From NCBI RefSeq assembly GCF_001592875.1, contig NZ_LSOF01000005.1, positions 401,335 through 465,334 of the forward strand: a DNA stretch of 64,000 nt, written 5' to 3'. Source of the DNA: Pseudomonas sp. BMS12. GTDB taxonomy: Bacteria; Pseudomonadota; Gammaproteobacteria; Pseudomonadales; Pseudomonadaceae. Under the pieces are notes generated by a model, which saw only the letters and a list, made by a program, of their open reading frames with translations, was not told where the DNA came from and made no database searches. The translations under genes and the position numbers were made by a program. Shown piece after piece: positions 40,684 through 58,521 of this stretch; the first letter of the stretch is position 1, and the number at the start of each line of letters is the position of its first letter.

Positions 40684-40717
40684 ACGAGTATCCGGATTTG
40701 GATGGAGGTACAGATTT

Positions 40718-41863
40718 CTAGGCCGCGCATGATAGCCAATTTCGGTAAAACTGCACCAGTGCCGCAGCAAGATCAGGACGAGAGGCCTGCAGCCGGCACC
40801 AGGCTTCGGCCTGGGCGGCGAGCGGCTTGGCCCGTTCCTGCCAGACAACCCAGGCCCGAGCCATGTCGCCGCGTCCGTTCCAGGCTCGCCACAGCGCCCG
40901 TAGCGCGTCAGCCTCCACGGGCGCCAACGTGGCGCAATAGATGTCCAGGAAGGCTTCGAGCTTGTCCCAGTGAGCGCCCTCCTCCTGCTGGTAGATATGC
41001 CAGAGCAATGGCCGCCCCGCCCATTGCGCCCGCACGAAGGAATCCTCGCCGCGCACCGCATTGAAGTCGCAGCTCCACAGCAGCAGGTCGTAGTCGGCCT
41101 GGCTGAGAAATGGCAGCAGCTGCACGCGCAGGTTGCCGCGCTGCCAGTTGTCCCCCGCGCCTAGCTCGTCGACAGCGAGCCACTGACGCAGATCGGCCTC
41201 GATGCGCCCCTGAGGCACCAACAACAGTGTCTCCTGCGGATCGGCAGCCAGGGCGTCCAGCCAGCCAGCCAGCGCCGGGGTCTCGTAGGCGAACAGGGAA
41301 ATCAGTCGCTCATGCTCCCGTGGGCTAACCCCAAGCCGCGCCAGGAACTCGCGCCGCGCCTGCGGAGCGCCTTGGAATGCCTGGCGCCGCGCCAGCAGAT
41401 CGGCCTCGCGCAGCAATCCGCCCGTGCCTTCGACGAAACCGGGAAAGAAGAAGAACTTCTGCAAGCCGCTGGCTTGCGGTGACGGCAGCGCGTGGCAGCC
41501 GCTGACCCAGTCCTCCGCGCTGAGGTATTCCAGGTTCAACCACAGCGGCTTGCGCGGACGCGCCGCCATCGTCTCGACGTAGCGGGTCGGCAACGTGCAG
41601 GCAAAGGCCTCGATCACCACATCGGCCGCTTCTATCGCCGGGAAATCGGCCAGCCAGTGGCACACCTCGACACCTTCGACGTGCTGGCGCGCAGCCCCTG
41701 CATCGGCCTGCGGACACAGGCGCAGGAAGGCCGCCGGCTCATCCACCCAAAGGCGTACGGCCAGGCCATGCTCGGCAACCAGCTGGCGAGCCAGACGCCA
41801 GGTCACCCCGATATCGCCGTAGTTGTCCACCACGCTGCAGAAGATGTCCCACCGACCGCCCAT
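40718..41863 (-). CDS. earP: EF-P arginine rhamnosyltransferase EarP
   Basis: A 381-residue inverting GT-B glycosyltransferase (DUF2331). The N-terminal [15 protein letters not shown] carries the catalytic Asp pair (Asp13, Asp17), [12 protein letters not shown] and [16 protein letters not shown] lie in the acceptor region, and [23 protein letters not shown] is the dTDP-rhamnose site. It adds rhamnose from dTDP-L-rhamnose to EF-P Arg32. Adjacent efp confirms the assignment. Confidence 0.96.
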
Positions 41864-42074: not shown

Positions 42075-45000
42075 ATGTCAGGGTTATCGCCTCGTTCGAT
42101 GTTCCGGCCGCAGAGTCACACGCTCGCACTCGAGCCACGGATTCTGTTCGACGGCGCTGCCGCAGTGGCGGTCGACCAGCAGCACGACACGGGCGATAGC
42201 GCCGACCACGCGCCAGCCACGCCGGTCGAGGCGCCCGCGGCCGCCCCCGCGCAACCTGGGGCACGTCATCTGCTGGTGCTCGACAGCCGGGTGGAAAATC
42301 GCGAACAACTGATCGACCAGCTACCGAGTGGCGTACAGGCGCTGGTGGTGGAACTGGGTCAGGACGGTATCGCCGCCATAGAGCAGACTCTGGAGGCCCT
42401 CGGCCAGGTCGACTCGATCCAGATCCTTTCCCATGGTGGCGCCGGCCAGTTCACCCTGGGCGCCACCACCATCTCGGCAGACAACATCGCCCAGCTAGGC
42501 GGCCGCCTGCAGCAGTGGAGCGACAACCTCAGTGCCGGTGCCGATATCCAGCTGTATGGCTGCAATATCGGCGCCGGCAGTGCCGGCCAGACCCTGGTAG
42601 CCGAACTGGCGCGCTGGACCGGGGCCGACGTGGCGGCTTCCGACGACGACACCGGCAGCCTCTCCGCCGGTGGCGACTGGGAGCTGGAGGTGCAGAGCGG
42701 CGACATCGACCAGCCCATCGCACTCGCTGCCGAGGCACTGAGCGCTTATGACGGCCTGCTCGCCGATGCCAGCCCAACCACCAGCCTGCCAGAAACCACT
42801 ACCCAGGCGCTGCTGGGTGACGATTTCGAATTCACGGTGAATTTCAGCAACAGTTCCAGCCAGGCCGGCTTTGGGCCCTTCATCGACCTGTTCCTGCCCG
42901 CCACGGGCAAGGACGGTGCAGGCGCAGAAATCGACGACGGTATCACCTTCGTTTCCGCCAGCTATCTAGGCCAGGCGCTGACCGCCCATGTCATCACCTT
43001 CGATGCCAATGGCCAGGCCACTCATCCTCTGGCAGTGGATAGCAGCGGCAACGCGCTGGTGATCGATGCCGCCAGTTATGGCATGCAGGCAGGTGACCAG
43101 CTGGTGGTGCTGGAGCTGCCCTTCGCCAGCGTGATCAACGGCCAGCCCACCATCGGCATCAACGTTACCGCCCATCTCAGCAACCTGGCCGACACCAGTT
43201 TCTCCAATGGCACCCCCGAACTGACCATCCGCACCCGCAGCGGCTTCCAGTACGGTAACGACTCGCTGAACAATCCCGCAGCAGACCCCAGCCTGGTAGA
43301 GGCTGGCAGCCAGAGTCTGGTGGTGCGGCCCACGATCATCACCTTCGACCAGAGCGTAATCTCCCCGGAGGGCGAAACCGCCACCGGCCCCAACTTCGAA
43401 CGCACCCTGCAGCTCAATGTGACGCCCGCCGATGGCCAGACCCTGACCAACGTGGTGGTCACTCAGCCTGTACCTGGCGATGTGATAGTCACAGGCATCA
43501 CCCCCGGTGCCGGCGGCACCATCACCTCCATGACCCTGTACGACGGGCGGACCTCCTCGAACCCGGCGGACATTGCCGCCGTGCTCGCCCGCAACAGCGA
43601 CGCCGACCTGAGCAATGACTTCTATATCAGCGAATTCGAAATCACCTACGCGACCTTGAGCGCGACCACCACCACAGATGTCACCTTCTTCGTACCCGAC
43701 ACCGATGAAAACGGCCAACCCATACTCGACCCGGTGACCGGCGACGACGTCACCATCACCTTCGGCGGCCCCAGCGCCACCGGCACATGGGTCCCCCTCG
43801 ATGGTCGCGACCTGACGCCCCCGGCCACCCAGATCGATTTCGGCGGCACAGGTGCGGACACCAGCTTTGTCGCCAAATCGATCACCCTGCTCAAGGAAGC
43901 CACCATCACCACCGACAACGGCACCACCGGCCTGACCCCTGGCGATGTCATTCGCTACGATCTGAATATCGCCATCTCCGACTACTTCGCCTTCGGCAAG
44001 AGCTTCCTGGAACAAGGCCAGTTCACCATTGCCGACGCCCTCGGCGACGGCCAGACCCTGCAAGGCACCCCGACCCTCAGCGTGACCTTCAACGGCGCGA
44101 CCCAGGTCATCACCCTGATTACCAGCAGTGTGGTCAACAGCGACGGCAGTACTTCGCTGAGTTTCGATATCGGTCAGTCGCTGCTCGACGCCTTCGGTGA
44201 CCGCGGCTGGCTGAACGGCGACCTGGCCTTCGACAGCGCCCAGGAAGGCGCGACTACAGCGCTGATCAGCTACACCGCGCTGGTTGGCCAGAGCTATACC
44301 CCGCCCGCCGGCAACCCCCACAGCGAGATCAACGAGGGTGACCAGGTCGGCAACAGCGCCACGGTGACCGCCAGCATCCTCGAGGACTACATCAACCTCA
44401 CCGGCAGCAGCGAGAGTGACGACTCCAGCACCGTCAGCAGCGTGCCCGTAGGGCATATCGAGCTCATCCTGTCCGATCTCAACGACGGCGGCGCACCGGC
44501 ACCCGGCGCCGAGCTGAAGCCGGGTGACGAAGTGACCTTCCAGCTCACCTACGATCTGGTGACCGGCGACTACGAAAACCTCAAGCTCACGGCCTACCTG
44601 CCCCTGCCGCTGTTCGATGTCAGCGGTATCAACTGGCAGTTCGTCGCCGGCACCGAGGCCAATGTTGGCCAATGGGTGCTGACTGCCGGCAATACCAATG
44701 CCGACAGCAGCATCAGCGTCAGCAACGGCCCGGGTAACTCGGTGGTGTTCGACCTTGGCAGTTACGTCAAAGCCACCGACATCACCAACGGCAGCCGCAT
44801 CCAGATCGAGTTCACCATGCAGGTCGGCGACCAACCCTATGCCGACAATCGCGAATTCGATGTACTGGCACAGTCCAGCCAGACCACGACTCTGGACAAG
44901 ACCCTGCTGTCATCTGACAGCATCGCCATCATCGCCTCCATCGCCGAACCGGTGCTGAGCATCAGCCATGGCGTGGTCTCCAGCAGCAACGGCACGGTCA

Positions 45001-48000
45001 GCGGCACCACGGGCACCTGGAACGCCCCCGGTACAGGCGGGCAGCCCTTCACCGGCAACATCACCGATATCGCTTCGGTCAACGGCGATGTCATCGACAT
45101 CGATGGCGGCGACGTCCTGCGCCTCGCCACGGCCATCGAGAACAGCGGTGGCGGCGCGGCCTACGACGTGAGTACCAGTGTCACCCTGCCCAGCGGGCTG
45201 GCCTTCGTGGGCGGCGGTCTGGCCAGCGCCAACCTGCAGATCTATCGCGGTGATGGCACCGAGCTGCAGCTGAACGTGGATTACAGCGTGAGTGGCAACA
45301 CCATCACCTTCATCGATGGCGCAGGGGCAGGCGCCCTCCTGCCGGGCCGCTCCGGCACCGGCAACGATATCAGCGGCGCCAACCTGGTGGTGATCACCTA
45401 TGACGTGGAAGTCAGTGACAGCATCGCCGCCAGCCGCACCCTGCAAAGCAGCGCCAGCCTGTCGCACTACGCCAGCACCGAGGGTGGCGACAACTTCATC
45501 GCCGGCGCCCCACTGTCCGACACCGCCGACCAGCAGGTCGCCGCGCCGGAGATCGACAAGGGTTTCGCTGGTGGCAGCCTGGATGACAGCGACTCCAGCG
45601 CCGAGCACACCACCGGCGCCAACCTGGTGATCGGCGAAAGCATGCTCTATGACATCGTCGTCACTCTGCCGGAAGGCACCACCCAGACCCTGCGGGTCGA
45701 CGACCTGATCCCGCCTGGCATGCGCCTGGATACCAGTTTCAATGGTGGCCTGGGCTACGAAATCATCACCACCGCCGGAGGCGCACTCAGCGCCAACTTC
45801 GCCGGCACCCTGAGCGGCGATAGCGTTGGCGGCATTTCCGGCACCCTGGGCGCCGAGGGCGTCGATGCGCGCTTTACCTTCACCACCGCCAGTGCCGACG
45901 CCGATAACGACACCGGCAACAACAGCTTCGTGATCCGCGTGCGCCTGGTGGTCGACAACGTCACCAGCAATCAGGACGGCGTTACCCGCAACAACGACGC
46001 TCAACTGGTGTACAGCGACCCCGATGGCGACACCGCCAATGGCAGCACGGCAACGGATCGCACCGTAGATAGCAACGGCACCCCGACCATTACCGTGCGT
46101 GAGCCGACGCTGACCGTCAGCCAGCAACTCCTGACCGCCCCGCCCATCGGCGGCTTCGACCTGGGTTCGGTGATCGACTTCACCATCACCCTGACCAACA
46201 GCAGCAGCTATGACGCCTTCGACATCAGCCTGCTCGACAATCTACCCACCCAACTGGATGGGCTGACCCTGATCGGTACCCTGTACAACGGCGGTGCCAC
46301 CAATAATGGTGGCGTAGATTTTGAATTAGTTGGCGGCCAGTTGCGTACCGCCAGCGGTGCCAATATCGATATCGGCGCCGGCGACAGCATAGTGCTGACA
46401 GTCCGCGGTACTGTTAATGCCACGGCCAACCTGGCCCCCGACTTCACCAACACTGCCACAGCACAATGGACCAGTCTGGATGGCAGTGCAGGCGGTACGG
46501 CAGACCCTAGCGGTGAACGCACCGGGGTCGATGGTCCCCTCAACGGTGGCGCGCTTAACGACTATCAGCACAGCGCCAATCTGGTCATCCCTGCCGCCAC
46601 CGGATTCAGGATTTCCCGGGTGGGTGGCCTCGATGACACCGCCGCGGCCGTCCCTACCAGCGGTAGCAGCGAAACGGTCAGCATCGGCGAAATCGTACGT
46701 TACCGGGTTGTGGCCAACGTGCCGGAAGGTGGACGTGTCGGCTACCAGATTCAGATCACCCTGGATGACGGCCTCGAGTTCATTCCAGCCAACCTGAACA
46801 ACATATTGATCGGTCTGATCTCCAACACCAGCCTGACCAGTAGCCTTGGCGGTGCCCTGGTCAGTAGTGGCGACCCGGCGATCACGGGTGATCAGGACAC
46901 GCCCCAGTCAGGGCCGATTGCAGCGGACCTGAGCGATCCGCTGACCGCGGTGTTAAACGCTGCTCTGGTCTCTGTTTCCGCCGATGGGCGCACCGTCACT
47001 TTCAGTCTCGGCAACCTGACCAACAATGATTTCAACGACGGCAACCTCGAAGGCCTAGCGCTGGAGTTCAACGTACGGGTCAGCAATCAGGCATCCAACC
47101 AGGCCGGCGATGAGTTGGCGGTCACCGCGCGTGACTATGTGAACAACGGCGCAACACAGATCTCCAGCAGCGCGACGCTCTACGAGCGCATCGTCGAACC
47201 GGGCTTCAGCGGTATGGACAAGACGGTCACCGCCTTCGACCCCAACCCGACCGGCAATACCGGCGATGCCACGGTACAGATCGACTTCACCCAGAGCGGC
47301 ACCCTGCCCGCCTATGACGTGGTGCTGACCGATGCCTTCCCCAGCGGCAGTGCCTACAACCTGATCAGCATCACCGTGGGCGCCACCACTTATCTGCCCG
47401 GTGACCTTCCGGCCGACGGCATCAACTTCAGCGAGGCTGGCGGCCTGACCGTCAACTTCGATCAACTGGATATCGGCACTCAGGTTCAGGTGATCTATGA
47501 AGTGACCGTACCTAACGACGCCCTGGTCGCTTCGGCCGATGCTCTGGCTACCCTGCGCTGGTCCAGCTTGCCGGAGGACTTCACCGACTGGGGTGACAGC
47601 ACGGTCGGTACGGACGGCACAACAACGGGAGAGCGGGACGGCTCCGGTGGCGTCAACGACTATATCCTCAGCGCCGGTGCCGGCCTGGGCATCATCGCCG
47701 GCACCCTGTGGGACGACACCTCCACTGCTGCTGGTGCGCGCGACGATACTAGCCCTGACCCTGACCCCGTACCCGCCACTCCGGCGTACGAACTGGGCCT
47801 GAACGGCCAACAGATCGACCTGATCTGGGCCGGCGTTGATGGCCTGTTCGGCACCGGTGACGACAGCACCTTCAGCACCACGACCGACAGCAACGGACGC
47901 TTCACCTTTGGTGTGCTGCCGAGCGGCCTATACCAGATCGATGCTCCCACTAGCATCACCGGGTTGGGCGGGTTTGGCGATCTAAGGATTCGCATCGACA

Positions 48001-51000
48001 GCGACCAGAACGACCTTGGCCAAGTCGTCTTGAACCTGGGCGAAGGAGTGATGCGCGAGGCCAACAGCGGCTATGTGGAAAATAACGATGCTCCCGTCAA
48101 CAGCCTGCCCGGCGGGCCGCTCAACGGCCTGGAAGATACCCTGCTGGCGATTGGCGGTGTAAGCATCAGCGATATCGACGCCGAGCATAATCCAGTGGTT
48201 TCCGACCGCCTCGTGCAGGTCACCCTCAGCGTCCTGCACGGCACTCTGAGTTTCACCGGTGCAACTACCAACGTAGGTGTTACCGGCGCAGGCACTGCTA
48301 CTGTCGTGCTACTCGGTCGGGTCGGCGATATCAACGGAGCGCTTGCCAGCCTCAGCTACCTGGGCAATGCCAACTACAACGGCAATGACACGCTGACCGT
48401 ACTGACCAATGACCGAGGCAACTATGGGGACGTCGATGGTGACGGTATCCCCGGTGAAGTCAGCGACGATGCCCTGACTGACCAGGACAGCGTCACCATA
48501 GTGCTGAGCCCCATCAACGACGCGCCGGTCGCCAACGATGACACCGCCCTGGCCACCGAAGCCGGCGGTCTGAACAACGCCACCGCTGGCATCGACCCAC
48601 GCGGCACGGTACTGGATAACGACACCGACGTGGATATCGCCACCAATGGCGACGTGCTCAGTGTCGTCTCGGTAACGGCCCTGAAAGGTGCCGGCAATGG
48701 CGACGATGTGACCCAGGCCTTGGTCGACGATGGCACCGAATACGAGATCGTCGGCCTCTACGGCACCCTGAAGATCAACGCCACCGGCCGCTACGAATAC
48801 GTAGTCGATAACGACAATGCCCTGGTCCAGGCACTGCGCACGTCCGGCCAGACCCTGAGCGAGAGCTTCAGCTACACCATCACCGACAGTGGTGTCCCGG
48901 CACCCACAGCCAACTCCACCGCTACGCTGACCGTGACCATTCGCGGCGCCAACGACACCCCGGTCGGCGTCGATGATGCCGGTACGGCCATCGAGGCTGG
49001 CGGCGTGGCCAACAGCTCCGGCGGCCAGGACGCCACCGGTAATGTGCTGCCCAACGATACCGATGTGGATACCACGATCAATGGCGAGACCAAGCGGGTT
49101 TCCGGGATACGCAGCATCGTCGAAGGCACTGCCGGCCCAACCGTGCCCGTCAGTACCGGCACCACCAGCGCCAATGGCACCTCGGTCGCCGGGCTCTACG
49201 GCACCCTGCGTATCGGCGCCGACGGCAGCTATCGCTACGTCATCGACAACGCCAACGCCACCGTTCAGGCCCTGGCCGACGGCGATACGCTGACCGAAGA
49301 ATTCAGCTACACAGTGACCGACGCTGGCGGCCTCAGCGCCCTGGCGGCGCTGACCATCACCATTGAAGGCAACCAGGACAACCCGGTCGCCAACAACGAC
49401 AGCAACACCGCCCAGGCCGGCTCGGTCGAACTCGGCATTGCCGAAGAGCTGGCCAGCGGCAATGTCATCACCGGGACCATCACCAGCGCGCTACCCGGAA
49501 CCGGGGCGGCGGATACGGATGTCGACAGCATCGACAACCCCACCAGCACCGAGCTGCTGGTCAACGGCGCCCGCCAGGGCAGCGAAGCTGCAGGCGGCAG
49601 TTTCACCGCCTTAGGCGGCGCCACCGTCATCACCGGTCTGTATGGCAGCCTGACCATCAACCCCGACGGCAGCTACAGCTACGATGTCGACAGCAGTAAC
49701 GCCACGGTCAGGGCCCTGGCTCCCGGCGCCACTATCAATGAGCTGTTCACCTACCGCATCGTCGATACCGCCGGCCTTACCGACCAGGCCCAGCTGACCA
49801 TCACCATCCGCGGCGTCAACGATGCCCCGGTCGTGGTCGACGACACCGCGCAGGCCGTCGAGGCTGGCGGCGTCAACAACCAGACCCCAGGGGTCAATCC
49901 GACCGGCAACGTGCTGAGCAACGACAGCGATCCGGACGGCGATAGCCTCAGCGTCAGCGCCATCACCGGTGGCACCGTCGGCCAGGCCCTGGTCGGCACC
50001 TACGGCACCCTGACCCTCAATGCCAACGGCAGCTACACCTACGTGGTCAACAACGCACTGCCAGCCGTGCAGGCCCTACGCGTGAATACTGATCAATTGA
50101 GCGAAAGCTTTACCTACACCGTCAGCGACGGCCAAGGCGGCACCAGCCCTGCGCAGTTGCTGGTGGTGATTTCCGGCAAGAACGATGCTCCCGTGGCGGC
50201 CAATGACAGCATCACGGCACAGGAAGCCGGAGGCACTGCGAATGGCACGCCCGGCATCGATCCGGACTCGATCGGCAACCCCGGCAGTTTCGCCAACCTG
50301 CTGGCCAACGACACGGATGTCGATGCCGGCGACAGCAAGACCATCAACGGCATCCGCACCGGCAGCGAGGCCGCGGGCGGCAGCTTCACCAGCGTCAGTG
50401 GCAGTCAGGTGATCCAGGGCCAGTACGGCACCCTGACCATCTACGCAGACGGCAACTATTCATATGCGGTGAACAACAACCTGCCTGCGGTCGAGCAACT
50501 GCGCCAAGGCCAATCGCTGAGCGAAACCTTTACCTATCGCATGCGCGATACGGCCGGCCTAACCGATACGGCGCAGCTCAATGTCGTCATCCAGGGCGCC
50601 TGGGATGCGCCGGTGGCATATGACAACCTGGCCTATGCAGTCGCCACCACACCAGCCGCAGCCGGACTAGACGGCAGCGGCAATGTCCTCACCGACTCGC
50701 GCTTCTTCCCGGCCGACAGCGATATCGACCAGGGCGACGTGCTGGTCGTCAGCGGCATCCGCACCGGAAGCGAAGCCGGTAGTGGCACAGCTGGCACCCT
50801 GGGAGTAGCCCTGTCCGGCGCCAACAACTATGGCGAGCTGACCATCAATGCCGATGGCAGCTATACCTTTGTCGTCAACTCCCTGCATCCCGACATCTTG
50901 GCACTCGGCCCCACCTCGTTTGTCACAGAGACCTTCACCTACCAGATCACCGATCTCGGCGGCCTGACCGATGTAGCCCAACTGACCGTCTATATTCGCG

Positions 51001-51923
51001 GCCAGGACATAGCCCCGGTTGCCGTCGACGACAGCAACCTGGCCAGCGACCAGACACCGGAGCCACAGGCCCAGGGCAATGTACTGCCCAACGACTTCGA
51101 CATCGATCTCGATGCCTCCATCGACGAGGAATTACTGGTAACCGCCGTGCGTACCGGCGCAGAGGCCAGCACCGGCACCAGCGGCACACTGGGTACACGT
51201 CTGCAGGGCCAATATGGCTGGTTGGTACTCAATGCCGATGGCAGCTACCAGTACTTCATCGACCTGACCAATCCGCAAGTGCTGGCCGCCGCAGGGCTCG
51301 GCCAGGTACTGCAGGATGTCTTCACCTACACCGTGGAAGACTTCTGGGGCGCCAGCGACCAGGCTGAACTGGTGATAACACTGGATATCGCCGCCCCCTA
51401 TGTCCCGCCGCCAGACAACGGGGGACTGGATGGGCATGGCGGCTGGCGCCCCTATCAACACTTCGAGCAAACGCAGGAAGCACCGACTCTGGATTTCGAG
51501 CCAGCAATCTTCGTCACGCCTGTTGTACAGAGCAGCAACAAGCTCGAAGAAGTGTTCTCTTGGGAGTCCGATGGTAGCGACCTGCGCATGACGTTACCGA
51601 TAGAGATGCAAAGCCCCTTCATGCAACGCCTGATGCCTGTCGTTCCCGGCCAGTTTGTGCAGCAGAGCATCAACGAAAGCCGCTTCGACAGCGAACTGGA
51701 TCTGGCCTGGATCCTCGGTCGCCAGAGCCGCATCGAGCTGACCGCCGATGGTCTACTGAGTGACCCATCGCTGTTCACCAGCGATCCGGCGGACATGATC
51801 CATAATCAGCAGCAAGCGGGCGGTGAAGAGCCGCCAGCGCAGACCGCGCGCAGCTTCCAGCACCAGTTGCAGACCGCGGCCAAACGGCTGAGCCCTTTCA
51901 ACCAGAGCACTCCGCGTAGCTAG
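42075..51923 (+). CDS. Giant DUF4347/VCBS surface protein with N-terminal LEPR-xLF motif
   Basis: A 3282-residue repetitive, acidic protein. Order: LEPR-xLL-type motif LEPRILFDGAAA at about 20-31; an Ala/Pro linker; DUF4347 (about 66-230) with LSHGGAG (His120) and YGCNIG (Cys163); tandem DUF11-like beta modules (about 236-1870); an SdrD-B/Cna-B-like domain (about 1871-2002); a cadherin-like segment (about 2010-2150); about seven VCBS-like repeats (APVANDD / GNVLxND / YGTLxxxxxGxYxYxV pattern, about 2150-3110); and a non-repetitive tail of about 170 residues with a PPP site. I see no Sec signal, membrane anchor or RTX nonapeptides. Start set at ATG with GGGAG 7 bp upstream. Likely a secreted adhesin; the four genes downstream look like its exporter. 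Confidence 0.9.
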   Translation: MSGLSPRSMFRPQSHTLALEPRILFDGAAAVAVDQQHDTGDSADHAPATPVEAPAAAPAQPGARHLLVLDSRVENREQLIDQLPSGVQALVVELGQDGIAAIEQTLEALGQVDSIQILSHGGAGQFTLGATTISADNIAQLGGRLQQWSDNLSAGADIQLYGCNIGAGSAGQTLVAELARWTGADVAASDDDTGSLSAGGDWELEVQSGDIDQPIALAAEALSAYDGLLADASPTTSLPETTTQALLGDDFEFTVNFSNSSSQAGFGPFIDLFLPATGKDGAGAEIDDGITFVSASYLGQALTAHVITFDANGQATHPLAVDSSGNALVIDAASYGMQAGDQLVVLELPFASVINGQPTIGINVTAHLSNLADTSFSNGTPELTIRTRSGFQYGNDSLNNPAADPSLVEAGSQSLVVRPTIITFDQSVISPEGETATGPNFERTLQLNVTPADGQTLTNVVVTQPVPGDVIVTGITPGAGGTITSMTLYDGRTSSNPADIAAVLARNSDADLSNDFYISEFEITYATLSATTTTDVTFFVPDTDENGQPILDPVTGDDVTITFGGPSATGTWVPLDGRDLTPPATQIDFGGTGADTSFVAKSITLLKEATITTDNGTTGLTPGDVIRYDLNIAISDYFAFGKSFLEQGQFTIADALGDGQTLQGTPTLSVTFNGATQVITLITSSVVNSDGSTSLSFDIGQSLLDAFGDRGWLNGDLAFDSAQEGATTALISYTALVGQSYTPPAGNPHSEINEGDQVGNSATVTASILEDYINLTGSSESDDSSTVSSVPVGHIELILSDLNDGGAPAPGAELKPGDEVTFQLTYDLVTGDYENLKLTAYLPLPLFDVSGINWQFVAGTEANVGQWVLTAGNTNADSSISVSNGPGNSVVFDLGSYVKATDITNGSRIQIEFTMQVGDQPYADNREFDVLAQSSQTTTLDKTLLSSDSIAIIASIAEPVLSISHGVVSSSNGTVSGTTGTWNAPGTGGQPFTGNITDIASVNGDVIDIDGGDVLRLATAIENSGGGAAYDVSTSVTLPSGLAFVGGGLASANLQIYRGDGTELQLNVDYSVSGNTITFIDGAGAGALLPGRSGTGNDISGANLVVITYDVEVSDSIAASRTLQSSASLSHYASTEGGDNFIAGAPLSDTADQQVAAPEIDKGFAGGSLDDSDSSAEHTTGANLVIGESMLYDIVVTLPEGTTQTLRVDDLIPPGMRLDTSFNGGLGYEIITTAGGALSANFAGTLSGDSVGGISGTLGAEGVDARFTFTTASADADNDTGNNSFVIRVRLVVDNVTSNQDGVTRNNDAQLVYSDPDGDTANGSTATDRTVDSNGTPTITVREPTLTVSQQLLTAPPIGGFDLGSVIDFTITLTNSSSYDAFDISLLDNLPTQLDGLTLIGTLYNGGATNNGGVDFELVGGQLRTASGANIDIGAGDSIVLTVRGTVNATANLAPDFTNTATAQWTSLDGSAGGTADPSGERTGVDGPLNGGALNDYQHSANLVIPAATGFRISRVGGLDDTAAAVPTSGSSETVSIGEIVRYRVVANVPEGGRVGYQIQITLDDGLEFIPANLNNILIGLISNTSLTSSLGGALVSSGDPAITGDQDTPQSGPIAADLSDPLTAVLNAALVSVSADGRTVTFSLGNLTNNDFNDGNLEGLALEFNVRVSNQASNQAGDELAVTARDYVNNGATQISSSATLYERIVEPGFSGMDKTVTAFDPNPTGNTGDATVQIDFTQSGTLPAYDVVLTDAFPSGSAYNLISITVGATTYLPGDLPADGINFSEAGGLTVNFDQLDIGTQVQVIYEVTVPNDALVASADALATLRWSSLPEDFTDWGDSTVGTDGTTTGERDGSGGVNDYILSAGAGLGIIAGTLWDDTSTAAGARDDTSPDPDPVPATPAYELGLNGQQIDLIWAGVDGLFGTGDDSTFSTTTDSNGRFTFGVLPSGLYQIDAPTSITGLGGFGDLRIRIDSDQNDLGQVVLNLGEGVMREANSGYVENNDAPVNSLPGGPLNGLEDTLLAIGGVSISDIDAEHNPVVSDRLVQVTLSVLHGTLSFTGATTNVGVTGAGTATVVLLGRVGDINGALASLSYLGNANYNGNDTLTVLTNDRGNYGDVDGDGIPGEVSDDALTDQDSVTIVLSPINDAPVANDDTALATEAGGLNNATAGIDPRGTVLDNDTDVDIATNGDVLSVVSVTALKGAGNGDDVTQALVDDGTEYEIVGLYGTLKINATGRYEYVVDNDNALVQALRTSGQTLSESFSYTITDSGVPAPTANSTATLTVTIRGANDTPVGVDDAGTAIEAGGVANSSGGQDATGNVLPNDTDVDTTINGETKRVSGIRSIVEGTAGPTVPVSTGTTSANGTSVAGLYGTLRIGADGSYRYVIDNANATVQALADGDTLTEEFSYTVTDAGGLSALAALTITIEGNQDNPVANNDSNTAQAGSVELGIAEELASGNVITGTITSALPGTGAADTDVDSIDNPTSTELLVNGARQGSEAAGGSFTALGGATVITGLYGSLTINPDGSYSYDVDSSNATVRALAPGATINELFTYRIVDTAGLTDQAQLTITIRGVNDAPVVVDDTAQAVEAGGVNNQTPGVNPTGNVLSNDSDPDGDSLSVSAITGGTVGQALVGTYGTLTLNANGSYTYVVNNALPAVQALRVNTDQLSESFTYTVSDGQGGTSPAQLLVVISGKNDAPVAANDSITAQEAGGTANGTPGIDPDSIGNPGSFANLLANDTDVDAGDSKTINGIRTGSEAAGGSFTSVSGSQVIQGQYGTLTIYADGNYSYAVNNNLPAVEQLRQGQSLSETFTYRMRDTAGLTDTAQLNVVIQGAWDAPVAYDNLAYAVATTPAAAGLDGSGNVLTDSRFFPADSDIDQGDVLVVSGIRTGSEAGSGTAGTLGVALSGANNYGELTINADGSYTFVVNSLHPDILALGPTSFVTETFTYQITDLGGLTDVAQLTVYIRGQDIAPVAVDDSNLASDQTPEPQAQGNVLPNDFDIDLDASIDEELLVTAVRTGAEASTGTSGTLGTRLQGQYGWLVLNADGSYQYFIDLTNPQVLAAAGLGQVLQDVFTYTVEDFWGASDQAELVITLDIAAPYVPPPDNGGLDGHGGWRPYQHFEQTQEAPTLDFEPAIFVTPVVQSSNKLEEVFSWESDGSDLRMTLPIEMQSPFMQRLMPVVPGQFVQQSINESRFDSELDLAWILGRQSRIELTADGLLSDPSLFTSDPADMIHNQQQAGGEEPPAQTARSFQHQLQTAAKRLSPFNQSTPRS

Positions 51924-51941
51924 TATGAATAAGGATTCTTC

Positions 51942-53474
51942 ATGCCCAGCCACACACCGAAAGCCCTGAGTCTTGTCGTAGCTACCAGCCTGTTTCTCGG
52001 TGCCTGCTCGGCCATCAACCCCAGGCCGTACACCGAGGAGGAAAAGAGCGAGCGCATTCTGGATGATCGCGCCCAGATGTATGGTCAGCAGGAGCCGGTC
52101 AAGGCACCGATAACCTTCTACGAAGCCGCAGCCCGGGCCCTCAAGTACAACCTCGACTATCGCCTCAAGCTGATGGAAAGTGCGCTGGCGGCGGACCTGC
52201 GCGATGTGTCCAGCCACGAGATGTTGCCGCGCCTGGTGGCTTCGGCCGGCTACTCCGGACGCAACAACGACTCCGGCGGTACCTCCATCGGCATTCAAGA
52301 TGGTCAGGAAAGCCTGCGCGCCTCGACCTCCCAGGAACGCTACCGTGACCTGGCAGGGCTTGGCGCCAGCTGGAGCCTGCTGGACTTCGGCATGGCCTAC
52401 TACCGCACCCAGCAGAAGACCGACCAGATCCTCATGGCCGAGGAACGCCGGCGCAAGGTGGCCCAGAACGTCCTGCAGGATGTGCGCAATTCCTACTGGC
52501 GTGCGCTCGGCGCCCAACGCCTGCTGCCCGAGGTCAACCGCCTGCTGGCCCGCACCGAACAGGCTCTGGAGTCGGCACGCCAGGCTGAGATCAAGGGTCT
52601 GCTGCCGCGCCAGGAAATCCTCGCCTACCAACGCGCCCTGCTCGACTCGATTTCTCTGCTGACGGTGCGCCGCCAGGACCTGGAATTTGCCCAGGCCGAA
52701 CTGGCCGCGCTGATGTCCCTGCCGCCTGGCACCCGTCTGGTACTGGCCGAAGAGACAGAGCCGGCCATGCAGCAACTGACCATCGATGGCGATCGTCTGG
52801 AGCAACTGGCCCTGAAAAACCGCCCCGAGATCATGGAGGAGTGGTATCGCAAGCGGGTCAACGAGAACGACCTGAAGATCGCCAAGGCCCAGCTGTGGCC
52901 CAACGTCAGCCTCAACTGGGGCTACCAGTACGACTCCAACAAATACCTGTACAACAATCACTGGTCCGAGACCGGCGTACAGGTGTCCCTCAACCTGCTG
53001 CGCCTGATGCAGCTGCCGGCCCTGCTCGACGCCGAAGGCACCCAGGGCGGTACCGACGACACCCGCCGCGTAGCGCTGTCCATGGCCATCCTCACCCAGG
53101 TACGGGTGGGTGCCTTGCGCTACCAGCTGGCGCTGCAGGAAGTCGAGTTCGCCGAAAAAGGCCTGCATGTCGACGAAGGCCTGCTCGACTATGCGCGCGC
53201 AGCCCGTAGCAGCTCGGTCGGTTCGGAGCTGGAGGTGATTCGCGCCGAAGGTCGCTACCTGCTGTCGCGCTATCAACGCGAAGCTGCGTACTCCAGCGCC
53301 CAGGCGGCCTGGGGTCGCCTGTACAACTCGATAGGCCTGGATGTGCTGCCGGAATCCATCGACAAGCACGATATCCAGACCCTGGCCCAGGAAATCCAGC
53401 ACACGCTGGAGGCCCAGCAAGCGCAGAACCTGTTCACCGCGACACAAGGAAGTGCCGATGCTGCGCAGCCGTAA
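51942..53474 (+). CDS. TolC-family outer-membrane lipoprotein
   Basis: A 510-residue TolC/OEP-type protein. Signal peptide with lipobox FLGACS (Cys about 22), then two OEP repeats: the first about 60-290 (ITFYEAAARALKYNLDYRLKLMESALA), the second about 290-490 with RPEIMEEWYRKRVNENDLKIAKAQLWPNVSLNWGY. It should form the outer-membrane channel of a tripartite exporter. AAGGA lies 8 bp upstream. It starts 18 bp after the surface-protein gene and overlaps the adaptor gene by 17 bp. Confidence 0.9.
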   Translation: MPSHTPKALSLVVATSLFLGACSAINPRPYTEEEKSERILDDRAQMYGQQEPVKAPITFYEAAARALKYNLDYRLKLMESALAADLRDVSSHEMLPRLVASAGYSGRNNDSGGTSIGIQDGQESLRASTSQERYRDLAGLGASWSLLDFGMAYYRTQQKTDQILMAEERRRKVAQNVLQDVRNSYWRALGAQRLLPEVNRLLARTEQALESARQAEIKGLLPRQEILAYQRALLDSISLLTVRRQDLEFAQAELAALMSLPPGTRLVLAEETEPAMQQLTIDGDRLEQLALKNRPEIMEEWYRKRVNENDLKIAKAQLWPNVSLNWGYQYDSNKYLYNNHWSETGVQVSLNLLRLMQLPALLDAEGTQGGTDDTRRVALSMAILTQVRVGALRYQLALQEVEFAEKGLHVDEGLLDYARAARSSSVGSELEVIRAEGRYLLSRYQREAAYSSAQAAWGRLYNSIGLDVLPESIDKHDIQTLAQEIQHTLEAQQAQNLFTATQGSADAAQP

Positions 53475-54213
53475 GCTTTGCCTGTTGCCCATGCTTCTGT
53501 TCGTCTCCCACTCCGCCTTCGCCGTTGAGGCCGGTGCCGTCTTCGCCGACCCTTCGGCGATTCGCGTGCTACTGGCCGCCGAGACCGAAACCACCCTGTC
53601 CAGTCAAATGACCGGCACCCTGGGTGAGTTACAGACCAGCCTCGGACAACGCGTGAAGAAAGGCGCGGTACTGGCCCAGTTCGATTGCCGCGAGGGGCAG
53701 GCGCGCGCCAAGGCGGCCAACGCCGAGCTGGCCATGGCCAAGCAGAACCTGCAGGCCAAGCGCCATCTGCGCAATCTGGAGGCCGTGGGCGATCTGGAAG
53801 TGGCCATGGCTGCCACCGAGGTGGAAAAGGCCGATGCCGCACGCAGCATGGCGCAGACCCAGAGCAGCTACTGCAAGGTTGTCGCGCCCTTCGCCGGGCG
53901 CATCGCCAAGGTGCATGCGCGTTCCTACCAGACCGTCAGCGCCGGCAGCCCACTCTTCGATCTGCTCAGCGATGGCGCGCTCAAGGTCCGCATGAACGTG
54001 CCCTCACGCATGCTCAGCAGCCTGCAACCCGGCACGCCGGTGCAGGTCAGCATCGCCGAAACCGGCAAGACCTACGCGGCCAAGGTCAGCGCGATCAACT
54101 CGCGGGTCGATGCCGTGGCCCAGACCATCGAGCTAGAGGCGACTCTCGACGCCGCCCACCCCGAACTGGTGGCCGGCATGAGCGGCGTGGCGCAATTCGC
54201 GGAAAATCCATGA
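53458..54213 (+). CDS. Periplasmic HlyD/RND-type adaptor protein
   Basis: A 251-residue adaptor with a cleavable signal peptide (about 1-22, ending SAFA). Biotinyl-lipoyl halves flank a short helical hairpin: GTLGELQTSLGQRVKKGAVLAQFDC before and APFAGRIAKVHARSYQTVSAGSPLFDL after; then a beta-barrel domain. It lacks an N-terminal membrane anchor, unlike HlyD. It overlaps the TolC gene by 17 bp and the next gene by 4 bp. Probably bridges the TolC channel to the inner-membrane partner. Confidence 0.87.
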   Translation: MLRSRKLCLLPMLLFVSHSAFAVEAGAVFADPSAIRVLLAAETETTLSSQMTGTLGELQTSLGQRVKKGAVLAQFDCREGQARAKAANAELAMAKQNLQAKRHLRNLEAVGDLEVAMAATEVEKADAARSMAQTQSSYCKVVAPFAGRIAKVHARSYQTVSAGSPLFDLLSDGALKVRMNVPSRMLSSLQPGTPVQVSIAETGKTYAAKVSAINSRVDAVAQTIELEATLDAAHPELVAGMSGVAQFAENP

Positions 54214-55550
54214 GCGAACGCCTGCCGCACCCGCAGCTGCTGCTCAGCCTGGCCAGCCTGCGCGACCGCGCGCTGTCTTGCGACACCCTCAACGCCCTGG
54301 CCTTCAGCATGGCCAACGACCTGCATCCACTGCTGCACTTTCACCAGGCCCTGGTGCTGGCCCAGCATGACGACAGCCTGGAGCTCCTGTGCATCTCCGG
54401 TCTGGCCCGGCCTACCGAAGACTCGCCCTACCTGATCTGGCTACGCAACGCCGGGCGCTGGTTGAGTGCCCAGACCAAGGGCACACAACCACAGTGGTTG
54501 GCACGCGACGCCGTCGAGCCGACCAGCGAAGTTGCCGCAGGCTGGCAGGAGTGGTGGCCCAGCGGCGTCTGGTGTGTGCCGCTACACGACCGCCAGGGTA
54601 AACGTCTCGGCCTGCTGCTCTACCTGCTCGACACCGAACCTCAGGCGCCCCTACCGGAGCTGCTCGGCGGCCTGTTTCGCACCTGGGAGTACTGCTGGGC
54701 TGCGCTGACCCAGAAGCGCCAGCTGCTGGGCTGGCGGCCAACGCGCCGGCAACTGCTGATCGTGCTCGGCCTGGCCGCCCTGCTGCTGTTGGTGCCCGTA
54801 CGCCAGAGCGTGCTGGCTCCGGCCGAAGTGGTGTCGCGCCAGGCGCAGATCATCAGCTCGCCCATCGACGGCGTGGTCGCCGACATTCACGTGCGCCCCA
54901 ATCAGGAGGTGCAGACCGGCACGCTGCTGCTGTCGCTGGACGAAACCACCCTGCGCAACCGAGCCGAAGTGCTGGGCAAGGAAGTGGCGGTTGCCGACGC
55001 CGAACTGATCGCCGCCAGCCAGCGCGCCTTCGACAACCTGCAAAGCAAGGCCGAGCTGACCCTGCTCAACGGCCGCGCGCAGCAGCGCAGAGCTGAACTG
55101 GCCGCGGTCGAGGCACAGCTGGAGCGCACCCAGGTTCATGCGCCACGCAGCGGAGTAGCGGTATTCAGCGACCCCAACGACTGGCTGGGCAAGCCGGTAT
55201 CCACCGGCGAACGCATCATGCAGCTGGCCGACCCCGGCCAGCCGGCCATGCGCATCCAGCTGCCGGTGGCCGACGCCATTGCCCTGGAGCCCGGCGCCGA
55301 GGTCACCCTGTTTCTCACCGCCTATCCCTTGTCGCCGCTCCAGGGACAAGTGCTGGAGACCAGCTACCAGGCCCGTCCCGGCGAAGACGGCGTCGCCTCC
55401 TATCGCCTGCTGGCCAGCATCGAGGGCCAGCCCGAGCACGCCCGCCTGGGGCTGCATGGCACCGCCAAGCTGTATGGCGACCGGGTACTGCTCGGCTACT
55501 ACCTGCTGCGCCGTCCCCTGGCAGCCCTGCGTGCCTGGAGTGGCTGGTGA
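54210..55550 (+). CDS. GAF-HlyD hybrid membrane adaptor
   Basis: A 446-residue protein. The first 180 residues are soluble and GAF-like (LALVLAQHDDSLELLCISG-type strands, WCVPLHDRQGKRLGLLLYLL), followed by one membrane segment (about 188-206, RQLLIVLGLAALLLLVPV) and a periplasmic HlyD part: lipoyl motif SSPIDGVVADIHVRPNQEVQTGTLLLSLDE, an alpha hairpin, second lipoyl half APRSGVAVF, and beta-barrel. Topology thus puts a sensory domain in the cytosol and an adaptor in the periplasm. Overlaps both neighbours. Confidence 0.82.
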   Translation: MSERLPHPQLLLSLASLRDRALSCDTLNALAFSMANDLHPLLHFHQALVLAQHDDSLELLCISGLARPTEDSPYLIWLRNAGRWLSAQTKGTQPQWLARDAVEPTSEVAAGWQEWWPSGVWCVPLHDRQGKRLGLLLYLLDTEPQAPLPELLGGLFRTWEYCWAALTQKRQLLGWRPTRRQLLIVLGLAALLLLVPVRQSVLAPAEVVSRQAQIISSPIDGVVADIHVRPNQEVQTGTLLLSLDETTLRNRAEVLGKEVAVADAELIAASQRAFDNLQSKAELTLLNGRAQQRRAELAAVEAQLERTQVHAPRSGVAVFSDPNDWLGKPVSTGERIMQLADPGQPAMRIQLPVADAIALEPGAEVTLFLTAYPLSPLQGQVLETSYQARPGEDGVASYRLLASIEGQPEHARLGLHGTAKLYGDRVLLGYYLLRRPLAALRAWSGW

Positions 55551-57646
55551 TGCTCGAGCCCGCCGACCTGCCGACCCCGCCGCTGCGCGAAGACCTGCGC
55601 CTGAGCGAGGCGCTGCCCGGCAATGATGGCGAGCCCTGCTGGATGATTCACGACACCGTGGTCAATCGCTTCTATCGCATCGGCTGGCTGGAATTCGAAT
55701 GCCTGTTGCGCTGGGAGCGCACACCCCGGCAGATCTGCAGCCAGATCAGCGAACAGACCCCACTCAAGCCCGAAGTCGAGCAGGTGCTGGGGCTGCGCCG
55801 CTTTCTCGAACAACATCAGTTGCTGCGCCCGGACGCCGATGCCCTGAAACGCCTGCGCGAGCAGAGTGAAGGCAAGCAGTGGCTGACCTGGAAATGGTGG
55901 CTGCACCACTATCTGTTCTTCCGTATTCCCCTGCTGCACCCGCAAACCCGCCTGCAGCGGCTGGCCAGCAGCCTGGACTGGCTGTTCCGTCCGATTACCG
56001 CCTGGCTGGTGTTTCTGCTCAGCCTGCTCGGCGTGGTCATGGTGCTGCAACAGTGGGACAGCTTCACCCACGCGGTAGTGGAATCCTTCTCTGCCGAAGG
56101 GCTGGTCAGCTTCGCCCTGGCCCTGTGCCTGGCCAAGACGCTGCACGAGCTGGGCCACGCCCTGGTGGCCACGCGCCTGGGACTGCGGGTGGCCCATATG
56201 GGCGTGGCTTTCGTGGTGCTCTGGCCCATGCTCTACACCGACACCGGCGAGAGCTGGAAGCTACGCAGCTCGCGCCAGCGCCTGGCCATTGCCGCCGCCG
56301 GCATCCTCACCGAGCTGTCGCTGGCCGGCCTGGCCACCCTCGGCTGGGCGCTGAGCGAGCCGGGCATGCTGCGCAACGCCCTGCTCTACCTGGCGACCAC
56401 CAGCTGGATACTGTCACTGGCGTTGAATGCCAGTCCGTTCATGCGCTTCGACGGCTACTTCATCCTGTCCGACCTGCTGGATTTCCCCAACCTGCACGAG
56501 CGCTCTTCCGCGTTGGCCCGCGCCACCCTGCGTCGCACTCTGCTGGGCCTCGACGAGCCCTGGCCGGAGCGCTTCCCCGCCGGTAAACGACGCCTGCTGG
56601 TGACCTTCGCCATCATCACCTGGCTGTATCGCCTGGTGCTGTTCCTCGGCATCGCCGTGGCGGTGTACCTGCTGTTCTTCAAGCTGCTCGGGATCTTCCT
56701 GTTCGCGGTGGAAATCGCCTGGTTCGTGGTCATGCCGATGTGGCGCGAGGTGAAGCACTGGTGGGGCGCGCGGGCGCAGATCCCCGGCGCACGCAAGCGT
56801 GGGCTGTGGCTGGCCCTGAGCCTCTGCCTGCTGCTGCTCGCCATTCCCTGGCGCAGCCAGGTGCACGGCTACGGCGTGGCGCGCAGCGAGCAGCAGCTGC
56901 GCCTGTTCACCCCCTACCCGGCCTTGCTACAGCAGGTCCACGAAGCCGGCCCGGTCGAGCGTGGCGCGACCCTGGCGGTGCTGGACGAGCCCGATATCGC
57001 TGCCCGCCTGCGTGGCAACGAAGCCAGCATCCGCAGCTACCAGGCGCGCCTGCGAGGCCTGCTGGCCGACCCCACAGGCCTGGCCCAGCAGAGCTCGACC
57101 CTGCAACGCCTGGACGTGGAACTGGGGCAAGTGCATGCCGCTCGCTCGGAGATCGCCCGCCTCACCCTCAAGGCGCCCTTCGTCGGGCAATGGCAGGACG
57201 TCAACCCGCAGTGGCAGGCGGGGCAATGGGTCGGCCCCCGGGAGATGCTGGGCGTGCTGATCGACCCCGAGCATTGGCAGGTCGACGCCTATATCGCTCA
57301 GGATCAGGTACATCGCCTGCAGAACGGCGGCCGGGTGCGCTTCTACCCGCAGGGCCAACCGGCGCCGATCGACGGCAAGGTACTGGCCATCGGCAGCACG
57401 CGAGTCAACCACCTGAGCCATCCCATGCTCAGCGCGCGCCAGGGCGGCCCCGTCACCACCGGCAGCGAAGATGAAGGGTTGGCGCCCAGCGAATCGCTGT
57501 TCCACGTCTTGATCCAACTGGACAGCCCGCCCCCCAGTCTGCGCGAGACCCTCGGCCAGGTGCAGATCGAGGGCAGCCGCCGCAGCCTGCTGGGTGAAGG
57601 CCTGACCTACAGCCTGGCCGTACTGCTGCGCGAGAGTGGCTTCTAG
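55550..57646 (+). CDS. M50 (site-2-protease-like) membrane protein fused to a HlyD-like domain
   Basis: A 698-residue protein. N-terminal PqqD-like winged domain (about 40-105). Polytopic core (about 145-445) with HELGH zinc motif (His199, Glu200, His203) in one helix and the second metal motif SPFMRFDGYF (Asp301) in another. The C-terminal periplasmic part (about 450-698) has HlyD-like lipoyl and barrel segments (APFVGQWQDVNPQWQAGQWV). All catalytic M50 residues appear intact. ATG 55550 overlaps the upstream TGA. Ends by overlapping the convergent metal operon by 4 bp. It occupies the inner-membrane position where an ABC exporter would be expected. Confidence 0.87.
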   Translation: MLEPADLPTPPLREDLRLSEALPGNDGEPCWMIHDTVVNRFYRIGWLEFECLLRWERTPRQICSQISEQTPLKPEVEQVLGLRRFLEQHQLLRPDADALKRLREQSEGKQWLTWKWWLHHYLFFRIPLLHPQTRLQRLASSLDWLFRPITAWLVFLLSLLGVVMVLQQWDSFTHAVVESFSAEGLVSFALALCLAKTLHELGHALVATRLGLRVAHMGVAFVVLWPMLYTDTGESWKLRSSRQRLAIAAAGILTELSLAGLATLGWALSEPGMLRNALLYLATTSWILSLALNASPFMRFDGYFILSDLLDFPNLHERSSALARATLRRTLLGLDEPWPERFPAGKRRLLVTFAIITWLYRLVLFLGIAVAVYLLFFKLLGIFLFAVEIAWFVVMPMWREVKHWWGARAQIPGARKRGLWLALSLCLLLLAIPWRSQVHGYGVARSEQQLRLFTPYPALLQQVHEAGPVERGATLAVLDEPDIAARLRGNEASIRSYQARLRGLLADPTGLAQQSSTLQRLDVELGQVHAARSEIARLTLKAPFVGQWQDVNPQWQAGQWVGPREMLGVLIDPEHWQVDAYIAQDQVHRLQNGGRVRFYPQGQPAPIDGKVLAIGSTRVNHLSHPMLSARQGGPVTTGSEDEGLAPSESLFHVLIQLDSPPPSLRETLGQVQIEGSRRSLLGEGLTYSLAVLLRESGF

Positions 57647-58521
57647 CCGGCCAGCGCATCCAGCAGTTGGGCGATGACCGCTTCCAGGTTGGCCAGCGGA
57701 TCGTCGCCCTGGCTATCGAGCACCAGCAGCTGGCTGCCACCGTCGGCAACGGCCTTGGCCAACTCGGCCGCGGGCTGGCGGTCAGCGAGCACCACGGCCA
57801 CTTCGTCTCCCTGCAGACTACTGGTCAGCTGCGCCAAGGCCTCGGTGGTCCACTGCTGATCGACCGGCAGCTCCAGCTCGATGCGATCCAGGTTGAGGCC
57901 GCTGATCAGGTAATCGAAGTGCGGCGACAGGCTGGCCACCGTGAGGTTGTCCAGCTCGGCCAGGCGCCCTTCGCTGTCGGCGCTGAGCTTGAGCAGGCGC
58001 TGCTTGAGATCGGCCAGGTTGGCCTCGATCTGCGCCTTGTCGGCCGGCGCCAGGCGCACCAGATCGGCCGCCGTCACGTCGGCCATGCGTCCAAGATTGG
58101 TGATGCTCAGCCAGGGCTGACTGGCCAGCGCATCAGTGGCCCCCGGCTCCACGGCAATCCCCGGAAGAGCGCCGTCCACCGGACGCGCACCATCGACCTC
58201 GACGATGCGGATATTGCTGCGCCGCGCCATCGGGTACAGCGGGTCATCCGGCCATAGCGAGCGCAGGGCGATCACCCCGTCCGCCTGGCTGGCCACTTTC
58301 TCCAGTGCCTTGGCGCCACGGCCACTGAAATAGGAGATCTGCCGGCTGGCCGGCAGCTTGGCCGGGGCGGCGCGTTGCAGCTGCACCGAGCTGCCGGCCA
58401 GCAGGGTGGCGCCCAGGCCGTAGGTGATCGGCAGGCTGGCGAGAATCCGTACCGGCTGCTGCTCGGCGTGCAGCGGAGCGGCGAGCAGCAGGCTGGCCGC
58501 CAGGACAAGAGGCAGTTTCAT
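57643..58521 (-). CDS. ZnuA-like metal-binding periplasmic protein, second copy
   Basis: A 292-residue cluster-9 binding protein with a signal peptide (about 1-20). The fold is of the TroA/ZnuA type (a long helix linking two lobes), but the usual metal-binding His residues are mostly replaced: ASLPITYGLGATLL stands where ZnuA has the first His, and SLSPHFDYL keeps one. It may bind a metal complex or act as a divergent partner. Last gene of the eight-gene operon; overlaps the permease gene by 4 bp. Confidence 0.82.
   Translation of the reverse strand: MKLPLVLAASLLLAAPLHAEQQPVRILASLPITYGLGATLLAGSSVQLQRAAPAKLPASRQISYFSGRGAKALEKVASQADGVIALRSLWPDDPLYPMARRSNIRIVEVDGARPVDGALPGIAVEPGATDALASQPWLSITNLGRMADVTAADLVRLAPADKAQIEANLADLKQRLLKLSADSEGRLAELDNLTVASLSPHFDYLISGLNLDRIELELPVDQQWTTEALAQLTSSLQGDEVAVVLADRQPAAELAKAVADGGSQLLVLDSQGDDPLANLEAVIAQLLDALAG

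Follow-up and report, generated by a model that had tools for sequence, protein, structure and literature searches.

A candidate secretion cluster without an ABC exporter gene for a giant LEPR/DUF4347 protein in Pseudomonas sp. BMS12

Results

The five-gene run and its conservation

We analyzed a window of 64,000 nucleotides from the 4.5-Mb genome of Pseudomonas sp. BMS12 (RefSeq assembly GCF_001592875.1, contig NZ_LSOF01000005.1, positions 401,335 to 465,334 of the forward strand), in which a first-pass annotation had proposed a secretion system for a giant surface protein. Five genes of the plus strand fill positions 42075-57646 of the window. The gene of the giant protein, which carries an N-terminal LEPR motif and a DUF4347 domain, comes first and is followed by four coupled genes encoding a TolC-like lipoprotein, an HlyD-type adaptor, a GAF-like-HlyD protein and an M50-HlyD protein (Table 1). 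The genes are separated by one 18-base gap and then overlap by 17, 4 and 4 bases. The annotation had both the coordinates and the composition of the run right, and the Pfam scan, which found both an HlyD-type adaptor and a TolC-type outer-membrane protein, agreed with it that no ATP-binding cassette (ABC) gene is present among the four partner genes. The Pfam matches of the five genes included no LapG-type protease, autotransporter or two-partner gene, no search aimed at these having been made. The GAF-HlyD label held for the HlyD part; no GAF domain was detected by Pfam in the protein of the window, while model PF01590 matched 10 of its 23 aligned relatives.

Table 1. Positions of the genes, domains and motifs of the cluster in the window
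Feature	Position	Strand	Remark
Giant LEPR/DUF4347 protein, predicted cargo	42075..51923	+	3282 aa
LEPRILFDGA motif, residues 19-28	42129..42158	+	N-terminal
DUF4347 domain, residues 66-229	42270..42761	+	Caspase-like by predicted fold
Best-scoring part of VCBS/cadherin-like repeats, residues 2517-2712	49623..50210	+	Profile matches
C-terminal motif SFQHQL, residues 3260-3265	51852..51869	+	Form [STGN][FLVI]xxQ[LIM]
OEP/TolC-like outer-membrane protein, lipobox-like LGAC	51942..53474	+	Pfam OEP 9.1e-38
HlyD-type periplasmic adaptor, hydrophobic N-terminus	53458..54213	+	251 aa
GAF-like domain, one transmembrane segment (183-201) and HlyD domain	54210..55550	+	446 aa
M50-HlyD protein: predicted RRE, site-2 protease, HlyD	55547..57646	+	699 aa from GTG
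Predicted RRE/PqqD-like domain, residues 9-95	55571..55831	+	M50 protein, predicted fold
HELGH zinc motif, residues 200-204	56144..56158	+	H200, E201 and H204 invariant in 53/53 rows
NASPFMRFDG motif with Asp302	56426..56455	+	N294 and D302 invariant in 53/53 rows
HlyD/MacA-like domain, residues 434-680	56846..57586	+	M50 protein

Relatives of the M50 protein numbered at least 592 in species genomes and 5789 among 7997 scored candidate proteins. The loci of 80 relatives, among which Pseudomonas sp. GOM6 is the closest named one (93% identical), were compared with flanks of at most 10 kb a side. P. resinovorans (locus L019) is another species with a cluster of the window type. The order TolC, HlyD, GAF-HlyD, M50 was kept in 75 of them, 72 being recognized by script and three (L009, L031 and L057) having the same order outside the length limit of the script. 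Three others (L027, L036 and L042) had HlyD, GAF-HlyD, M50 and then a LEPR gene, with no TolC gene in the stretch covered; L072 is cut by a contig end, and L073, whose contig extends 3.4 kb further upstream, showed no partner there. More distant relatives reorder the set (HlyD-GAFHlyD-M50-...-LEPR-TolC, TolC-HlyD-LEPR-GAFHlyD-M50 and others), and its survival through these rearrangements argues for a joint function.

The survey of 119 genomes of the genus showed that DUF4347 was present in 57 and M50-HlyD in 60, and that all 57 genomes with DUF4347 also had M50; in one genome (G086) both were only remnants. The M50 gene was found on the same strand and within 26 kb of 58 of the 64 DUF4347 places (counts that omit partial or weak rows, 2 of 66 for DUF4347 and 1 of 70 for M50); the other six were 111 kb away in one case and on a contig lacking M50 in five. 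In 369 genomes of the class, M50 was found in 57, DUF4347 in 48 and both in 36, the M50 search scoring only the top three candidates per genome, so that some may have been missed. The locus thus recurs in many species and the observation is more general than this single window. On gene content and order, we conclude that the four partner genes and the giant gene form one unit.

Independence from ABC exporters

An ABC type I exporter of the LapB type, encoded elsewhere, could perform the inner-membrane step, the four genes only processing or anchoring the giant protein. A single LapB-type exporter is encoded in the genome carrying the window, on another contig and next to OEP and HlyD genes, and seven of the eight genus genomes that have DUF4347 and M50 and lack LapB have a PrtD-type exporter, three of these also having HlyB. 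Both observations favor such an exporter, as does the position of a LapB-type exporter about 5-19 kb from the M50 gene in at least 19 genus genomes, as judged by eye (for example L141:914-3082 and L141:16879-18975). However, the presence of LapB and that of M50 were independent in the genus, a LapB-type exporter occurring in 52 of the 60 M50-positive and 51 of the 59 M50-negative genomes (Fisher p = 1). The flanks of the 80 relatives held no exporter-like ABC gene (best match 75 bits), and G008, the last of the eight genomes without LapB, which has two M50 genes, had no LapB, HlyB or PrtD over the cut-offs.

We also examined the 57 class genomes with M50 together with G008. No PrtD-profile match was obtained at E 1e-90 in 36 of these 58 genomes, and the LssB profile run on the 36 recovered a LapB in one (G408) and a full-length protein of 350 bits in another (G428). 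This left 34 of the 58 M50-positive genomes with no type I ABC exporter recognizable by the two profiles. Among the 17 class genomes with an M50 protein like that of the window (at least 500 bits), 13 had no recognizable type I ABC, including the one-contig genome G342; two of the 13, G218 and G356, are 67% and 55% complete, respectively, and a 351-bit ABC protein of G342, which aligned only from position 131, was not counted as type I. The HlyB-type model TIGR01846 was searched in nine genomes; for the other M50-positive genomes, HlyB-type exporters were counted as absent when neither the PrtD nor the LssB profile detected them. Three HlyB exporters reached 358-390 bits against PrtD. These genus and class counts led us to reject a LapB-type ABC as a hidden motor and bear out that the presence of the cluster is independent of an ABC exporter elsewhere. 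A necessary and co-occurring exporter, the pattern that would have spoken against the annotation, was not what the genome survey revealed, because 34 of the 58 genomes had no recognizable type I ABC. We therefore regard an ABC exporter acting from elsewhere as improbable.

ABC genes of other kinds lie near some of these clusters. Those just downstream of the M50-HlyD gene in the window (58518-60169, minus strand) are of the zinc-importer type, the locus being bordered on this side by a ZnuA/ABC-3/ABC_tran importer (57643-60169, minus strand) and on the other by earP together with the gene for an elongation factor P (40108-41863, minus strand). In L288 (7640-9505) and L211 (10527-12431), the M50 gene is followed by an ATPase gene that is weakly LapB-like (92-95 bits) and possibly of the soluble ABC-F type.

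A SecA paralogue in the sister clade

The gene directly after M50 in L208, L219 and L220 encodes a SecA paralogue with SecA_DEAD, P-loop and preprotein-binding domains and with GEGKT and DEAD motifs. The three proteins match the SecA and SecA2 models, all under the cut-off. In this they resemble accessory SecA2 systems, from which the loci differ by their HlyD and M50 partners and the genome of the window by having no such paralogue. The M50 protein of the window can be aligned with those of the SecA-bearing loci.

Of the 80 genomes searched for SecA, 57 were class genomes with M50, and 24 of these had a second copy. No second copy was found in eight further genus genomes with M50 or in 15 M50-negative genomes, the latter hand-picked rather than random. 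Of the 27 places with a second SecA, 22 had it on the same strand as M50 and no more than 1 kb downstream (two SecA rows of G218, treated as pieces of its one SecA, were omitted). In a midpoint-rooted tree of 53 M50 rows, a clade of 13 rows (support 1.0) came from genomes that carry a second SecA in 12 of 13 cases, in nine of them next to that very M50 gene; the tree has no carrier row for 12 of the 24 second-SecA genomes. Sixteen class genomes have a row on the window's side; of these, G421 alone carries a second SecA, which lies beside an additional, lower-scoring M50 gene (the 500-bit cut that separates window-type from other M50 proteins differs from the clade border). The flanks of the 80 relatives contained no SecA paralogue.

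The position of the SecA paralogue, mostly directly after M50 in the sister clade, hints at a motor of the Sec type. The annotation had assigned the inner-membrane role to the M50 protein. That this protein alone takes the step is not supported as stated, because we know of no energy source for an intramembrane protease and because the sister clade carries the SecA paralogue. The reading that we prefer, at about even odds, is a Sec-type motor that drives the cargo across the inner membrane, the housekeeping SecA being the likely one here, with the M50 protein capturing the leader and trimming it.

The M50-HlyD protein could instead be the inner-membrane channel itself, driven by SecA or by the proton-motive force. 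Its several predicted membrane helices and its fused periplasmic adaptor fit this role. The invariance of H200, E201, H204 and D302 in 53 of 53 aligned rows favors a working protease rather than a mere channel, and no protein channel is known to us among the site-2 proteases. Kamneva et al. 2015 (PMC4452313) had already put forward a channel formed by the M50 protein in the SecA-type loci; for the cluster described here we judge it unlikely, if still worth consideration.

The M50-HlyD protein combines a predicted RRE domain, a site-2 protease and an HlyD part

The Peptidase_M50 match of this protein reached 37 bits (cut-off 27.2), and both zinc motifs of the family, HExxH and N-x-x-P...DG, are present. 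The glutamate that had been annotated as E200 is that of the HExxH motif, but its number is 201 when counted from the GTG start and 200 from the following ATG. A single structure model (mean predicted local distance difference test score, pLDDT, 89.6) showed RRE, SpoIVFB-like and MacA-like folds, and the domain folds given here for this protein are predictions from it. Seven membrane helices were read in the model and six were obtained by a hydropathy scan. When the M50 profile was compared by sequence with solved structures, mainly the HlyD part was matched and the M50 matches were weak.

The N-terminal domain is predicted to be a winged-helix domain of the RRE type, a type known for binding leaders of ribosomally synthesized and post-translationally modified peptides (RiPPs); this prediction is new here. 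Pfam PqqD had no match in the M50 protein of the window, while 8 of 53 aligned proteins matched it (best 6.7e-7). Leader recognition by an RRE is typical of RiPP pathways, and the predicted fold supports the earlier suggestion that the M50 protein may recognize the N-terminal LEPR motif.

These features could also belong to a RiPP-like pathway, in which the M50/RRE protein would process a small peptide and the giant protein would be only a neighbor. The best NCBIfam match of the M50 protein is the daptide intramembrane protease NF041824 (163 bits, under the cut-off of 300), and in some relatives acetyltransferase or sulfotransferase genes adjoin the cluster; the window's five genes, however, encode no modifying enzyme, and the giant gene remains linked to the cluster in several different arrangements. 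We hold this reading to be very improbable. The RiPP M50 proteases (daptide, YydH/LiaK) share the M50 family with the protein described here, which differs from them by its HlyD fusion, by a giant protein in place of a short peptide and by scores under the family cut-offs.

The relatives with such additional genes gave the following observations. A Sulfotransfer_3 gene stands just before the LEPR gene in L130 (9791-10690, plus strand), and a gene of L145 (4095-4961, plus strand) is by eye very similar at its start; a cargo-modifying sulfotransferase beside the LEPR gene is possible. A GNAT acetyltransferase gene lies between the M50 and LEPR genes in L129 and L130, and L129 also has a gene with a phage-tail-collar domain (L129:9790-11876, minus strand; L130:6194-6781, plus strand; L130:7260-7856, minus strand); further similar gene starts were seen by eye.

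The giant protein is marked at both ends

The LEPR residues and the Asp of the N-terminal motif were invariant in 17 of 17 aligned rows, which had been chosen by the LEPR pattern. The LEPR-xLL label of the annotation is justified by the motif, which is plain in the sequence, but not by the NCBIfam model NF012209, against which the giant protein scored 14 bits (cut-off 17) and the protein of L200 26.5 bits. The repeats of the giant protein are cadherin/VCBS-like, with seven stretches matching TIGR01965, seven Cadherin_4 and five Big_9, and with DUF11-like repeats as well. The protein is acidic (407 D+E vs 101 K+R). A motif count bore out that it has no RTX nonapeptides, GGxGxD being found once and GGxG[ND]D not at all. 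The protein scored 281 bits against NF045619 (BapA/Bap/LapF; cut-off 180), and automatic names such as BapA/Bap/LapF adhesin may mislead, because the best stretch covers only model positions 108-219 of 458, inside the repeats.

The C-terminal motif [STGN][FLVI]xxQ[LIM] was found within the last 60 residues in 74 of the 83 C-termini of the discovery set, nine being without it. A first, narrower pattern had matched 24 of 83 and was widened after inspection of the sequences. Most of the 83 frames run off the stretch, so that their LEPR start was not seen and the frame was placed by its position before TolC or taken from the clusters of more distant relatives. The motif was present in 18 of 19 further proteins of the same genus. 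By comparison, internal windows had it in 105 of 2668 cases and partner proteins in 5 of 369. This validation used 20 stretches, 19 with a reading frame (L235 had none, and the one miss, L241, possibly has a wrong frame), and the set is not phylogenetically independent. The conservation of a LEPR-type N-terminal motif and of the C-terminal motif suggests a cargo marked at both ends with a middle that varies. As marks of a putative cargo, judged by sequence pattern, the two motifs are new here.

A weak signal could also take the cargo out of the cytoplasm along the ordinary Sec route, the cluster acting only afterwards and the SecA paralogue of the sister clade being a local add-on. Many cargo proteins have a basic start, a weakly hydrophobic stretch and an alanine-rich tail around LEPR, as would suit such a signal. 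A hydropathy scan, the only basis for this point, nevertheless agreed with the annotation that the giant protein has no Sec signal: no typical Sec h-region was found in the first 80 residues (best 19-residue mean 0.98). There is no strong hydrophobic core, the best 10-residue mean being 1.86 as against 2.25 and 2.88 for the signals of two partner proteins; the charged LEPR is conserved in the middle of the stretch, and a cytoplasmic RRE would be left without a clear role. We give the ordinary Sec route a low probability.

The DUF4347 domain is not a hallmark of the cargo

DUF4347 is predicted to have a caspase-like (clan CD) fold with a His/Cys dyad and may be an active protease. His120 and Cys163 were invariant in 38 of 38 aligned rows, Cys163 being the sole cysteine of the giant protein. 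The comparison with Tce1, which is paired with Hcp3 in type VI secretion (PDB 9qpe), shows a difference in architecture, the domain being built here into a giant protein beside the LEPR motif.

The 48 class genomes with DUF4347 were counted at E <= 0.001, 47 of them being over the family cut-off, and 19 of the 24 genomes with a second SecA also carry the domain. We rejected DUF4347 as a diagnostic hallmark of the cargo, since it is absent from 21 of the 57 class genomes with M50 and since 12 of the 48 genomes that have it are without M50. LEPR-like long proteins without DUF4347 adjoin the cluster in 8 of 17 DUF4347-less M50 genomes inspected (G171, G024, G050, G071, G342, G347, G413 and G230), with variants such as LEPRFLLSAD, LEPRMMFDAA, LEERVVLDAA and LETRLLYSAD. 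The frame runs off in G225 and G358, the contigs are short in G312, G353 and G156, and no LEPR-like protein was found near the cluster in G126, G295, G303 (an M50 fragment only) and G334. The search pattern was broad, and a bare LEPR also occurred in two unrelated frames (L278 and L284).

DUF4347 is used in other contexts too. The loci L212-L218 have DUF4347 proteins with no M50 gene in the 16-20 kb around them, and the three C-termini inspected were without the motif. For Burkholderia thailandensis, PMC12322963 lists the DUF4347 protein BTH_II1339 with those whose levels rise most in stationary phase (log2 2.52).

Discussion

The gene set is conserved in composition, occurs independently of LapB, is linked to a SecA paralogue in a sister clade and adjoins long proteins with conserved terminal motifs. 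We tentatively propose, with somewhat less than even confidence, that it represents a separate Gram-negative secretion system, in which a fusion of RRE, protease and adaptor reads the LEPR leader much as RiPP enzymes do theirs, a SecA-type motor, either dedicated or borrowed, replaces the ABC exporter, HlyD and TolC-like proteins form the conduit, and the cargo brings a caspase-like protease to the surface. The RRE domain would capture the N-terminal LEPR leader in the cytoplasm, SecA would push the unfolded chain through SecYEG, and the M50 site would remove the leader. The path across the periplasm and the outer membrane would be built from the three HlyD domains together with the TolC-like protein. 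The C-terminal motif may be a second signal, for sorting or retention. As a caspase-like protease within the cargo, DUF4347 would process the cargo itself or a neighbor once outside.

Several points weigh against this proposal. The genome of the window has a single SecA_DEAD match (E <= 1e-15), on another contig, so that the use of the housekeeping SecA here is an extrapolation from the sister clade, and 17 of the 40 M50 genomes under 500 bits are also without a second SecA. Lower-scoring ABC proteins similar to type I exporters were present in 37 of 38 genomes checked, and the tallies come from related genomes and thus count events that are not independent. The topology of the M50 protein is uncertain, as an RRE inside and an HlyD part outside need an odd number of helices and the model and the hydropathy scan gave seven and six, respectively. 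The low hydrophobicity of the cargo N-terminus relative to the two partner signals, given above, would also have to be reconciled with a Sec-type motor. We infer that SecYEG is the channel and the housekeeping SecA the motor here, that the giant protein is the cargo, is exposed at the surface and is cleaved, and that DUF4347 is active.

SecA-bearing loci with M50, HlyD and GAF-HlyD genes, one of them in Methylobacterium extorquens AM1, were described by Kamneva, Poudel and Ward in 2015, who noted the missing ABC exporter and proposed that SecA supplies ATP and that the M50 protein forms the pore; in the sections on these loci, no cargo is named and the broader biological role is called completely unknown (PMC4452313). 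The cluster described here resembles those loci in its M50-HlyD, GAF-like-HlyD and further HlyD proteins, sometimes with an OEP protein, and in having no ABC exporter; it differs from them in that the genome of the window lacks the SecA paralogue, the TolC-like gene lies inside the run and there is a candidate cargo. The RRE domain and the cargo motifs are described here and are not mentioned in the sections of PMC4452313 on SecA loci. The literature searched yielded no paper linking LEPR giants with the M50/HlyD module and no experimental work on the predicted SecA/M50/HlyD module; within it, the lineage without a SecA paralogue and the link to LEPR giants are additions to the 2015 module.

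The giant adhesins of type I systems (LapA, SiiE) also combine a giant repeat protein with HlyD adaptors and an OEP protein. In contrast to them, the locus described here has no ABC exporter and no RTX repeats, and has an N-terminal LEPR motif and a membrane protease; RTX nonapeptides are common, though not universal, in type I cargo.

As far as the literature was searched, LEPR giants of the type found in this window had no described way out of the cell. Joining them with the 2015 module gives a testable pathway whose leader motif, predicted receptor domain, protease and motor could each be inactivated. If this pathway is true, HlyD/TolC conduits would not be tied to ABC, RND or MFS pumps, and RRE domains would serve giant proteins as well as small peptides.

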